A stretch of DNA of 64,000 bases. Source: Fructilactobacillus myrtifloralis. GTDB lineage: Bacteria > Bacillota > Bacilli > Lactobacillales > Lactobacillaceae. This document shows positions 10,756 to 16,298 of the stretch, piece by piece. Made by a program: the position numbers and the translations under genes. Each line of letters starts with the position of its first letter. Positions within the stretch are counted from its first letter, which is position 1. The stretch spans positions 1 to 64,000 of the forward strand of contig NZ_CP097116.1 of the NCBI RefSeq assembly GCF_024029335.1, read 5' to 3'. The notes under the pieces are model-generated. The model was given only the letters and a program-made list of their open reading frames with translations. It was not told the origin of the DNA and did not search any database.

Positions 10756-10783
10756 TTGACAAAGCCATAAATTACCGTATAAT
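10756..10783 (+). promoter_or_regulatory. promoter of T-box leader 1
   Basis: TTGACA, 16 bp, TATAAT, starting right after the nuclease stop. The first 12 bases (TTGACAAAGCCA) recur in the promoter of leader 2. Confidence 0.85.
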
Positions 10784-11030
10784 AACTGATAACCAGTAAG
10801 CAAATCAGAAAGACGAAGCGTAGCCCAGTTCTAAGGGGAATAATCAAAGAGAGTTCTAGGGTGGTGCGATAGAATGTTTATCCACTTAGACAGATCAGCT
10901 ACAAGTTGCAACTCCGAATGTTGAAGAGGGGTTGTTGGGATTGCCCATTATCGCAAACGAGTATCGTTGCTCCTGCAATCGTACTTAGAGCCGTTTCACT
11001 TGGAAACGGGAATTCTGGGTGGTAACACGC

Positions 11031-11082
11031 AAAAGCGTCCTAGACCGTGCCGTTGGCATGGTGGAGGGCGCTTTTTGTTTTT
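11031..11082 (+). terminator. first T-box-controlled terminator, leader 1
   Basis: AAAAGCGTCCT pairs with AGGGCGCTTTT, then a T-rich stretch. An inner ACCGTGC/GCATGGT extends the stem. Confidence 0.85.
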
Positions 11083-11167
11083 CTAGGCGCGTAGGAGGTG
11101 CAACCGCACTCATGAGATGGCGAGTGGATCCGGACCACGAGCTAAAAAAAGGTGGTACCACGTTTTT

Positions 11168-11206
11168 AACGTCCTTGTTCAGTTAATGAACAGGGACGTT
11201 TTTTTA
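11168..11206 (+). terminator. second T-box-controlled terminator, leader 1
   Basis: AACGTCC-T-TGTTCA pairs with TGAACA-G-GGACGTT, followed by T7. It ends 44 bp before the brnQ start. Confidence 0.88.
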
Positions 11207-11249
11207 TTTGCTTACCATGGTTAATCACTTTAAGTTAGGAGCAACAACT

Positions 11250-12617
11250 ATGTCTGAATTAGAAACGCCCAACCGCTTCCGGTTTAAACAGTTAATCGTT
11301 TTAGCCTCACTTTTATTTGCCCTCTTTTTTGGAGCTGGGAATTTAATTTTCCCGGTTCATCTAGGCCAAGTAGCCGGCCGGAATTGGATTCCGGCTGCGA
11401 TCGGTTTTTTACTGTCGGCGATTTTATTGCCACTCGGGTCCATTTTTGCCCTGGGTCTGACCAAAAGTAAAAATATGTTTGAATTAGTCTTACCAGTGGG
11501 AAGCACCTTTTCATTGCTCTTCTTGCTGGCTGCTCACGGGTCAATGGGGCTGCTAATTGGGTCACCACGGTTAGCCACCGTGACCTTTACAATGGGGGTT
11601 CAGCCTTTTTTACCAACCCGGTGGAGTCATCCGGCCCTCCTTATTTTTTCGGCGCTGTTTTTCGCGACGATTGTGCTCCTCGCGTACCGGCAAACGAGCA
11701 TCACGAACAGCGTGGGGAAAATCCTCAATCCGCTGTTTGTCGTACTCTTATTTGGCTTATTCTTAGTTGCCTTTCTCGTCAACGGTGATGCATCGCACCT
11801 GCCGCTGCTCGGGCAACCCGGACAGGGGACCAGTTCGCTAATTAGTGGTTTCTTAGAGGGTTACAACACGATGGATGCCCTCGCTGGATTAGGGTTTGGT
11901 GTGACCATCATCGCTGCGGTTCGCTCCTATACCAAGTCCGATCGGAATCAAGGGCTAGTTGTTGCTCAAATTGGATTAGTGGCTCTTGGGTTGGAAGCAG
12001 TCATTTACGTGGGTCTGATTGCCTTAGGAGTGGTGAGTCTCCGATTTACCAAGGCTAGTGCGGATGGGGGGACGGCCTTTACCCAAATCATGGCGCACTA
12101 TACAGGTTCGCTGGGGGCGGCGTTACTAGCGACGCTGACCCTGTTAGCTTGTTTAACGACCGCGGTCGGGGTTTTAACCTCCTTTGCGCAGGACCTTGGC
12201 AATCGTTTCCCGCGGATTGGCTACCACAAGTTTTTGCTCGGAGCGAATGTAATTGCCTTTGGGATTGCCAACTTTGGCTTAGACCAGATCATCGCGTTTT
12301 CCGCCCCCATCTTAAGCTTGCTCTACCCGGTTGCCATTACCGTGATTGTCCTTGCGTTGTTGAACCGCTGGATTCGGCAGAATCACCTGATCTACCGGAT
12401 AACAGTCGGCTTGGTTTTGATCCCAGCTAGCCTGGATTTTCTCCACACGTTGCCACCCGTCCTCCATCAATTGGAGCCCCTCGTAGCGCTCGATCACTGG
12501 TGTCAGGCGGTAATTCCACTGTTTAACTGGGGCCTTGATTTTATCCCGTTCTTACTGGTCGGACTGGTGGGGAGTAGCTTGTTCGTTTGGAGTCAACGGT
12601 TCGCAAAAAAGGTTTGA
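11250..12617 (+). CDS. brnQ: branched-chain amino acid carrier, LIVCS family (copy 1)
   Basis: Membrane symporter importing Leu, Ile and Val. About 12 hydrophobic segments in 455 aa, with the family signatures LFGAGNLIFPVHLG near the N-terminus, EGYNTMDALAGLGFG in the middle and ACLTTAVGVL. A TTG frame opens at 11208, but the ATG at 11250 has TTAGGAG eight bases upstream and fits the homologue next door. It is preceded by an Ile-type T-box leader and followed by a paralogue with its own leader. The pair looks like a tandem duplication of leader plus gene. Confidence 0.93.
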   Translation: MSELETPNRFRFKQLIVLASLLFALFFGAGNLIFPVHLGQVAGRNWIPAAIGFLLSAILLPLGSIFALGLTKSKNMFELVLPVGSTFSLLFLLAAHGSMGLLIGSPRLATVTFTMGVQPFLPTRWSHPALLIFSALFFATIVLLAYRQTSITNSVGKILNPLFVVLLFGLFLVAFLVNGDASHLPLLGQPGQGTSSLISGFLEGYNTMDALAGLGFGVTIIAAVRSYTKSDRNQGLVVAQIGLVALGLEAVIYVGLIALGVVSLRFTKASADGGTAFTQIMAHYTGSLGAALLATLTLLACLTTAVGVLTSFAQDLGNRFPRIGYHKFLLGANVIAFGIANFGLDQIIAFSAPILSLLYPVAITVIVLALLNRWIRQNHLIYRITVGLVLIPASLDFLHTLPPVLHQLEPLVALDHWCQAVIPLFNWGLDFIPFLLVGLVGSSLFVWSQRFAKKV

Positions 12618-12642
12618 CAAAGCCACCAATCTCCTGTAAATT
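12614..12642 (+). promoter_or_regulatory. promoter of T-box leader 2
   Basis: TTGACA overlapping the brnQ1 TGA stop, 17 bp, TAAATT. Confidence 0.75.
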
Positions 12643-12647
12643 AATGT

Positions 12648-13040
12648 CAATTAATTAATTCGAAAAACAAAGCGGAGGAGAGTAGTTTTTCGGACCCTGA
12701 CAGCGAATTCCCGGGTGGTGTGAAGGGAAGCAGGTTCCAAAAAATGAAAGTAACCTCCAAGTTGCAACTGCGAAAGTTCGAGTAGTTGTTGGGAGTGCCC
12801 ATTACCGCACGGAGTATGTTAGGTTTGCTAACATACCGTTGAGCCAATCGTTAGATTGGGAAGATGGGTGGTAACACGTGAAAACGTCCTGGACTGTTTC
12901 TAGAGCAGTACAGGACGTTTTTTGTTAGCAAAGACTAACCGACTCGCAGAGCCCGGCGTTGTGAAGCGCCAGGAAAATAAGGTGGTACCGTGGTCACGCA
13001 TCCTTTGTTCGTGAGTTAGCTTACTTACTTAGGAGGATAC
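12648..13040 (+). promoter_or_regulatory. T-box leader 2 with two T-boxes; Val specifier predicted
   Basis: Same plan as leader 1. The lower helix GGAGG (12674-12678)/CCTCC (12754-12758) and the upper TTTTT/AAAAA plus GGACCCTG/CAGGTTCC frame a specifier loop. Its 5' side has AGTA and its 3' side reads GAAA-GTA-A, with GTA (valine) at 12750-12752. Apical loop GGGTGGTGTGAA. First T-box TGGTAACACG (12869-12878) with terminator 12881-12925. Second T-box TGGTACCGTG (12983-12992). No T-rich terminator follows the second unit. Instead ATCCTTT (13000-13006) can pair with the GGAGGAT ribosome site before brnQ2. Confidence 0.8.
12881..12925 (+). terminator. T-box-controlled terminator, leader 2
   Basis: AAAACGTCCTG pairs with CAGGACGTTTT, then T's. 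Confidence 0.87.
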
Positions 13041-13043
13041 CCC

Positions 13044-14414
13044 ATGACGACGTTATCAACGAATACGCCCCGCAAACTGGCGTTTAAACAATATTTAATT
13101 TTAGCTTCCTTACTCTTTGGCCTCTTTTTTGGGGCCGGGAACCTGATCTTCCCGATTCACCTCGGGCAAACGGCCGGAGCCAACTGGCTCCCGGCTGCGA
13201 TTGGCTTTTTACTATCAGCAATTTTATTACCGCTCTGTGCCATCTTAGCGTTAAGTACCACGCAAAGTAACAGTATGTATGACTTAGCACGACCAGCGGG
13301 TAAATTTTTTGCCATCGGGTTCTTAGTCCTGACGCACGCTTCTTTAGGACTATTAATTGCTGCCCCCCGGACGGCGACCGTAACCTATTCGATGGGGATT
13401 CAACCCTTTATTCCCAAGGCCTGGGGGACTCTCGCCTTGGTGATCTTCTCAGCAGGCTTCTTTGCCTTAACCTTTGGCCTAGCGTTTCACGAGGGGAGCG
13501 TTACCAAAAACGTGGGAAAAGTATTGAATCCGATCTTCATCCTGCTAATGGTCTTTCTCTTCGTGGTGGCCTTTCTGTTATACGGAGACATTCGCAACCT
13601 ACCGTTATTGCCCCGGGCTGGACAGGGGACTGGCTCCCTAATTAACGGGTTCTTGCAAGGATACAACACGATGGATGCCCTGGCCGGACTAGGGTTTGGG
13701 GTGACCATCATTACCGCACTGAAGGCATTTGGGCAGTCTAGTCGGGACCGTTCCTGGTCGGTTGCCAAGGTTGGGGGCCTGACCATGGGCTTTGAAGCCT
13801 TGATTTATACCTTCTTGATTGCCTTAGGGGCCGCTAGTTTATCCTTTACGAAGGTGAGTGCCGACGGCGGAACTGCATTTACCGAAATCATGCGCCATTA
13901 CACGGGGATCATGGGCGCGGGCGTTTTAGCGGCACTAACGTTTCTAGCCTGCTTGACCACCGCAATTGGCTTGTTAACCTCGCTCGCCCAGGATTTAAGT
14001 CGGCAACTGCCCCGGATTGGTTACCACAAGATTTTATTGACGGCCACGGTGATTTCCTTTTTGATTGCCAACATCGGACTGGAAAAAATCATTGAATATT
14101 CCGCACCGCTGTTGAGTTTCCTCTATCCCTTGGCAATTACCCTGATTCTTCTCGGGTTATTGAAACCCGTACTCGGGATTAAGCCGTTAATCTATCGGAT
14201 CACGACTGGAATCGTCTTAATTCCGGCTGTATTCGATTTTATCCATACCCTACCGAAAGCATTATTAAGCCTTGTGCCCTTAGCCGCCTTTGATCGGTGG
14301 GCGTTACAGGCGATTCCATTGTATGCCGTTGGTCTCGACTTTGTACCGTTCTTAGGCCTCGGATTAATCATTAGTTTATTAGTAAGCTGGTACGCACACC
14401 ACCAGCACAGTTAA
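13044..14414 (+). CDS. brnQ: branched-chain amino acid carrier, LIVCS family (copy 2)
   Basis: Paralogue of the preceding carrier. It is 456 aa with about 12 membrane segments and keeps LFGAGNLIFPIHLGQ, GYNTMDALAGLGFGV and LACLTTAIGL. Start ATG has TTAGGAGGAT upstream. Protein similarity to copy 1 is high and collinear, consistent with local duplication. Its leader carries a valine rather than isoleucine specifier by my fold, so the two carriers may respond to different amino acid shortages. Substrate preference within Leu/Ile/Val cannot be told from sequence. Confidence 0.93.
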   Translation: MTTLSTNTPRKLAFKQYLILASLLFGLFFGAGNLIFPIHLGQTAGANWLPAAIGFLLSAILLPLCAILALSTTQSNSMYDLARPAGKFFAIGFLVLTHASLGLLIAAPRTATVTYSMGIQPFIPKAWGTLALVIFSAGFFALTFGLAFHEGSVTKNVGKVLNPIFILLMVFLFVVAFLLYGDIRNLPLLPRAGQGTGSLINGFLQGYNTMDALAGLGFGVTIITALKAFGQSSRDRSWSVAKVGGLTMGFEALIYTFLIALGAASLSFTKVSADGGTAFTEIMRHYTGIMGAGVLAALTFLACLTTAIGLLTSLAQDLSRQLPRIGYHKILLTATVISFLIANIGLEKIIEYSAPLLSFLYPLAITLILLGLLKPVLGIKPLIYRITTGIVLIPAVFDFIHTLPKALLSLVPLAAFDRWALQAIPLYAVGLDFVPFLGLGLIISLLVSWYAHHQHS

Positions 14415-16075: not shown

Positions 16076-16095
16076 AAGCACAACTAAATGAGTTT

Positions 16096-16217
16096 CTTCG
16101 GGGCAGGGTGTAATTCCCGACCGACGGTAACGACAGAAGTCGAAGTCCGTGACCCGCATTTTGCGGTTGATCTAGTGAGAGTCTAGAACCGACAGTATAG
16201 TCTGGATGGGAGAAGAA
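16096..16217 (+). ncRNA. FMN riboswitch (RFN element)
   Basis: Conserved RFN sequence blocks in order: TTCTTCGGGGCAGGGTG, TTCCCGACCGACGGT, GTCCGTGACCCGC, TTGATCTAGTGAGAGTCTAG, AACCGACAGTATAGTCTGG and ATGGGAGAAGA closing the P1 helix. A terminator at 16299-16334 forms the expression platform. FMN binding should switch off the rib genes. Confidence 0.96.
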
Positions 16218-16298
16218 ACCAAAAAGAACCTAGGGGTAGTGGGTCGTTTTTCTGACGATTACCGTGCCCCGGGTCCTTTTCACTAACTAAAAAACGGG

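Follow-up and report, generated by a model that had tools for sequence, protein, structure and literature searches.

The window analysed here, 64,000 nucleotides of Fructilactobacillus myrtifloralis DNA (GCF_024029335.1, contig NZ_CP097116.1, positions 1 to 64,000, forward strand), carries two adjacent genes for branched-chain amino acid carriers of the LIVCS family, brnQ1 (11250-12617) and brnQ2 (13044-14414). Both were delimited as open reading frames and by comparison with relatives, and their function is assigned by homology; the genes and all features of their leaders lie on the forward strand. Each gene has a promoter of its own, followed by a long leader. The predicted promoter of leader 1 (10756-10783) was read from the sequence as TTGACA, 16 nt and TATAAT, while that of leader 2 (12614-12642; TTGACA, 17 nt, TAAATT) is kept in an alignment of six species. 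Sequence and alignment also place the Shine-Dalgarno (SD) sequence of brnQ2, AGGAGG, at 13031-13036, ahead of the ATG at 13044-13046. The window further contains an FMN riboswitch (16090-16221, 121.3 bits) ahead of a gene for riboflavin biosynthesis.

A search with the Rfam T-box model (RF00230) returned a full-model match in each leader, at 10807-11045 in leader 1 (85.9 bits, E 1.2e-18) and at 12661-12894 in leader 2 (87.5 bits, E 4.8e-19). Both fall slightly short of the gathering score, which is 93 bits; leaders of sister species score 101 and 110.6 bits. The matches locate Stem I, the sole codon-reading domain of each leader, at 10807-10905 and 12661-12766, and the Rfam alignment places Stem II and the IIA/B element of leader 1 (GGGATTGCCCATTA) at 10906-10958, with approximate limits. 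The specifiers that a preliminary description of this DNA had proposed from Stem I folds, ATC (Ile, 10894-10896) in leader 1 and GTA (Val, 12750-12752) in leader 2, coincide with the specifier column when 79 Lactobacillaceae brnQ leaders are aligned, a column that holds GTA in 51 leaders, ATC in 28 and no other codon. Across related species the two positions are conserved as Ile and Val codons, as that description would require: ATC is invariant among the leaders of type 1 (F. myrtifloralis, G006, G005, G001, G003 and G008) and GTA among those of type 2 (F. myrtifloralis, G006, G005, G002, G001 and G003). The genome encodes tRNA-Ile GAU, which pairs with ATC, and the tRNA-Val in the loci scanned is solely UAC, which pairs with GTA; both have A73, fitting the UGGU of all four modules. 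Both leaders thus possess the parts of a T-box, namely Stem I with a specifier, Stem III and an antiterminator with a UGGN bulge, and their specifiers and UGGN sequences fit tRNAs of the same organism.

In a protein tree the two brnQ paralogues form sister clades (100/99) within a clade of genes with GTA leaders, which also holds the single-module leaders of Lentilactobacillus. Since the paralogues are sister clades nested among Val-reading leaders, the simplest explanation is that leader 1 acquired its Ile specifier by a switch after duplication, the Ile state being derived, and the proposed divergence in the tRNA sensed after duplication agrees with this topology.

Each leader contains two T-box cores in series, TGGTAACACG at 11020 and TGGTACC at 11153 in leader 1, and TGGTAACACG at 12869 and TGGTACC at 12983 in leader 2. 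The preliminary description held that the first core is always of the one kind and the second of the other, which is correct for the window but not for relatives, where G003 has TGGTAACGCG as its first core and G008 has TGGTAACACG in both modules. No second Stem I was found ahead of the second T-box by the RF00230 search, either in the two leaders of F. myrtifloralis or in the leaders L028 and L030 of sister species. The match of the second module of leader 1 is limited to model positions 183-216, the antiterminator alone (26 bits, E 0.0032), the leader 2 second module of L028 matches only positions 160-216, and in L030 the model spans module 1, so that its match runs from the one Stem I to antiterminator 2. 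Because the second modules match just the 3′ end of the model, or module 1 is spanned, there is no hidden Stem I, and the approximately 55-70 nt that separate terminator 1 from the second core hold only a Stem III-like hairpin. Each brnQ leader is thereby confirmed as a partially tandem T-box, with one Stem I/II sensor and two discriminators, each consisting of Stem III and an antiterminator, the second of them without a Stem I of its own. The earlier reading of one complete Stem I and two serial T-boxes per leader was therefore right, coordinates included.

In leader 1 both modules end in a terminator. Discriminator 1 (10988-11042, Rfam alignment) consists of Stem III (10991-11009) and an antiterminator with the bulge TGGTAAC (11020-11026), and its terminator, identified by folding, lies at 11031-11084 with a U-tract of 5. 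Discriminator 2 (11115-11176, Rfam) consists of a Stem III-like hairpin (GCGAGTGG..CCACGAGC) and an antiterminator with the bulge TGGTACC (11153-11159), and is conserved in G006, G005, G001 and G003. The accompanying terminator 2 (11168-11205, AACGTCCTTGTTCAG..GAACAGGGACGTTTTTT), likewise identified by folding, has a U-tract of 7, and the U-run at this position is at least 6 in six leaders of this type. Since leader 1 has two intrinsic terminators, RNA polymerase must pass both, and the leader would make two serial decisions, both during transcription. Leader 1 is thus a T-box with a duplicated terminator/antiterminator; T-boxes with duplicated elements of this kind were reportedly described by Vitreschak et al. 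in RNA in 2008. In the Stem III of the second module (11110-11145), the loop GGATCCGGACC is kept in four species and replaced in G003. A leader peptide ahead of the second T-box of leader 1 (ATGAGATGG...) was considered and rejected, as G001 lacks the start codon.

Leader 2 begins in the same manner. Discriminator 1 (12841-12890, Rfam alignment) has its Stem III at 12844-12859 and the bulge TGGTAAC at 12869-12875 in the antiterminator, and terminator 1 (12883-12923, fold) has a U-tract of 6. Discriminator 2 (12949-13005), delimited by covariation and by the Rfam match of the L028 orthologue, comprises Stem III (12952-12973), the bulge TGGTACC (12983-12989) and the antiterminator helices A1 (AAGG/CCTT) and A2 (GTG/CAT). 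No terminator was found in this second module: in 6/6 species the U-runs ahead of the start codon reach 2-3 at most, and in all six the second module is something other than a terminator/antiterminator pair. Among 74 distinct brnQ leaders, the six of leader 2 type have no run of at least 5 U after the last T-box; a single further leader lacks such a run, and it has a 4-U run and an evident terminator. Runs of at least 5 U are present in the second modules of all six leader-1-type leaders and of 26/26 leaders of the amino acid ABC transporter type described below. The two decision modules noted earlier are therefore present in both leaders, but the second one in leader 2 is not a terminator decision. 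Partially tandem T-boxes have one Stem I and then two terminator/antiterminator units, an arrangement that leader 1 fits fully, whereas the second unit of leader 2 is without a terminator and sits on the SD sequence.

This terminator-less second module could be a decaying relic, its terminator lost and its function gone, leaving leader 2 effectively a single T-box. Loss is plausible and the terminator-less state may be derived, since an orphan GTA two-module leader in G008, which has lost brnQ, still ends in a terminator-like hairpin followed by TTTTATTTTT. However, a relic would not be maintained by compensating changes, and this is what the alignment reveals. In the second discriminator 91.7% of cells are paired, 9/16 pairs have changed on both sides, and the covariation of 0.61 compares with 0.20 for shuffled alignments (0/500). 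A hand count finds the A1 and A2 pairs preserved in 6/6 species, four pairs having changed on both sides. In G003 the antiterminator and Stem III have been completely rewritten with compensation (CUGG/CCAG and CCGC/GCGG), and the UGGUACC bulge is invariant. We therefore consider decay unlikely and, given that changes in Stem III and in the antiterminator helices are compensated, the comparative evidence indicates selection on this second module of leader 2. A GUGA (GNRA) tetraloop at 12961-12964 caps its Stem III in 6/6 species, unlike the variable Stem III loops of the first modules, and is a possible tertiary docking site.

A candidate sequestrator without a U-tract spans 12993-13048, proposed on the basis of MFE folds, opening energies and the U-tract survey. 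It would pair AUCCUUU (13000-13006) with GGAGGAU (13032-13038) and GUCA (12993-12996) with UGAC (13045-13048), the latter involving the start codon. In the unconstrained MFE folds of the species folded, the SD sequence and start codon are paired with the 3′ strand and loop of the antiterminator. The computed cost of opening the region from the SD sequence to AUG is 8.4-14.4 kcal/mol in the free RNA versus 3.5-6.1 kcal/mol with antiterminator 2 formed; it is lower in 6/6 species and then near the median of 5.4 for the same region of other genes. For the SD sequence alone the cost is 5.9-9.7 kcal/mol, whereas 33 other genes in the window have a median of 3.0 (one-sided Mann-Whitney p 0.0009, not corrected for kinship, the six leader 2 sequences being close kin). 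The gap between ON and OFF states of the module, 8.7-12.9 kcal/mol, compares with 7.9-23.5 kcal/mol in the terminator modules of these leaders.

The controls qualify this picture. When the sequence downstream of the T-box is shuffled, the SD sequence is hidden about equally well in 5/6 species, since CCUU, which forms the 3′ strand of the antiterminator, is in itself an anti-SD sequence; G003 is the exception, with an ensemble energy reached by 0.5% of shuffles. As the control does not discriminate, the folds indicate an available translational switch rather than a selected one. The sequestrator helix displays no covariation: five close species share it with little change, and in G003 the start region is hidden by another helix, formed by GUGGUACCC and GGGUAUCAU. 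In G006 antiterminator 2 frees the SD sequence only slightly (P unpaired from 0.21 to 0.27).

An alternative is that both second modules act on transcription, that of leader 2 through a non-canonical or factor-dependent terminator or a pause that dispenses with a U-tract. The other two-module leaders inspected are all of the terminator/terminator kind, and in leader 2 a local hairpin, GUCAC/GUGA, overlaps the antiterminator and competes with both folds, which would suit such an element. Against this, the U-run before the start codon is just 2-3 in all six species, and the SD sequence follows directly on module 2 and is paired in the MFE folds of the species folded; we accordingly rate this alternative as quite improbable. 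For the second stage of leader 2, control of translation is the simplest reading and the most likely one. Taken together, it is probable that these partially tandem leaders differ in output, with leader 1 acting twice on transcription and leader 2 acting on transcription and then, most likely, on translation. The combination of a terminator followed by apparent translational control was seen in no other leader examined.

According to the mechanism that we propose, Stem I would bind one tRNA, tRNA-Ile GAU in leader 1 and tRNA-Val UAC in leader 2, and each discriminator would be able to ask whether its 3′ end is uncharged. In leader 2, uncharged tRNA-Val at module 1 would let polymerase pass, after which the terminator 1 hairpin could fold harmlessly. 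With terminator 1 harmless after passage and module 2 within reach, the same tRNA could move from antiterminator 1 to antiterminator 2. Its 3′ end would then pair with the second UGGU, antiterminator 2 would form and the ribosome-binding site would be freed; if no uncharged tRNA were present, the SD sequence would be held by the 3′ strand of antiterminator 2 and the start codon by the loop upstream. Charging would in this way be tested twice in leader 2, irreversibly in transcription and then reversibly on the message.

The second discriminator might instead be served by a second, free uncharged A73 tRNA, in which case it would read general charging without a codon check. The UGGU of all the modules fits any A73 tRNA and there is no codon reader near module 2, both as this idea would have it. 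Nonetheless, it is codon pairing that anchors the T-box complex, as the strongest among its three contacts, the contact with the 3′ end being weaker (PMC7583486), and Stem I remains upstream in the same RNA, so that recruitment of a free tRNA appears doubtful. The arrangement that we propose, in which one codon reader serves two kinds of output, a co-transcriptional terminator check and a reversible translational check, with the same tRNA handed over, is one to which we give an even chance. We infer its translational output, the hand-over, the order of the checks and a steeper response. The adjacent brnQ paralogues form a natural pair with the same sensor layout, a different tRNA and apparently a different second stage, which makes the hand-over of the tRNA and the benefit of a double starvation check directly testable.

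The layout of one sensor and two modules is already known in kind, and what differs in leader 2 is the apparent combination of outputs. A review from 2020 mentions partially tandem T-boxes and states that their mode of action is unknown (PMC7583486), and tandem T-boxes have been reported before a histidine transporter operon in Enterococcus (PMC9413887). In Actinobacteria, translational T-boxes of the ileS type resemble the switch proposed for leader 2 in that an antiterminator is set against an SD-hiding helix; they mostly dispense with a long Stem I and possess a single discriminator, whereas leader 2 keeps Stem I in full, places a transcription module first and belongs to Bacillota. Tandem riboswitches with a transcriptional and then a translational platform follow the same order of control as that proposed for leader 2, but have a sensor for each platform where leader 2 has one sensor for two.

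Pairs of T-box cores at a spacing of 80-140 nt are present in 200/398 genomes of the family and in 22/198 genomes drawn from the order. The reversed pattern gave 3 matches in the 398 family genomes, and set against the 200 genomes with a forward match this indicates that the layout does not arise by chance. Some two-core matches (L183, L184, L186 and L187) were dismissed as chance or as not being double T-boxes. All 26 loci of one set (L123-L148) lie ahead of the permease of an amino acid ABC transporter, and 24 of their leaders align cleanly with the specifier CAC (His), L123 and L124 less cleanly; the sequences suggest that most other two-core genomes of the family carry this site. Like the brnQ leaders, these His-reading leaders of Lactobacillaceae and relatives have two cores approximately 110-130 nt apart, and the one scanned against Rfam, L133, gives a single Stem I match. 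Unlike leader 2, they have U-tract terminators in both modules (26/26), and they serve another tRNA and another gene. The His leaders L125-L148 (for example L133, 1303-1620) carry UGGU or UGGA in both modules, and over the 26 loci the bases in the two modules are T/A in 14, A/A in 7 and T/T in 5, so that the two modules often differ. tRNA-His normally has C73, for which UGGG would be called for.

Within the F. myrtifloralis genome the two-module layout is found at the two brnQ leaders only, and among the relatives fetched no two-module brnQ leader was found outside the genus. Apparent double T-box brnQ leaders in Limosilactobacillus (L106 and L117) proved false, their first motif being part of the IIA/B element. 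The orphan Val-reading leader of G008 (L182, 517-1100, minus strand), left behind after the loss of brnQ, now precedes an 81-aa ORF. In G003 a further two-module T-box, with terminators in both modules, lies before an APC-type amino acid permease (L188, G003:C49:34000-35600); its likely homologue in the F. myrtifloralis genome, L020, has a single module.
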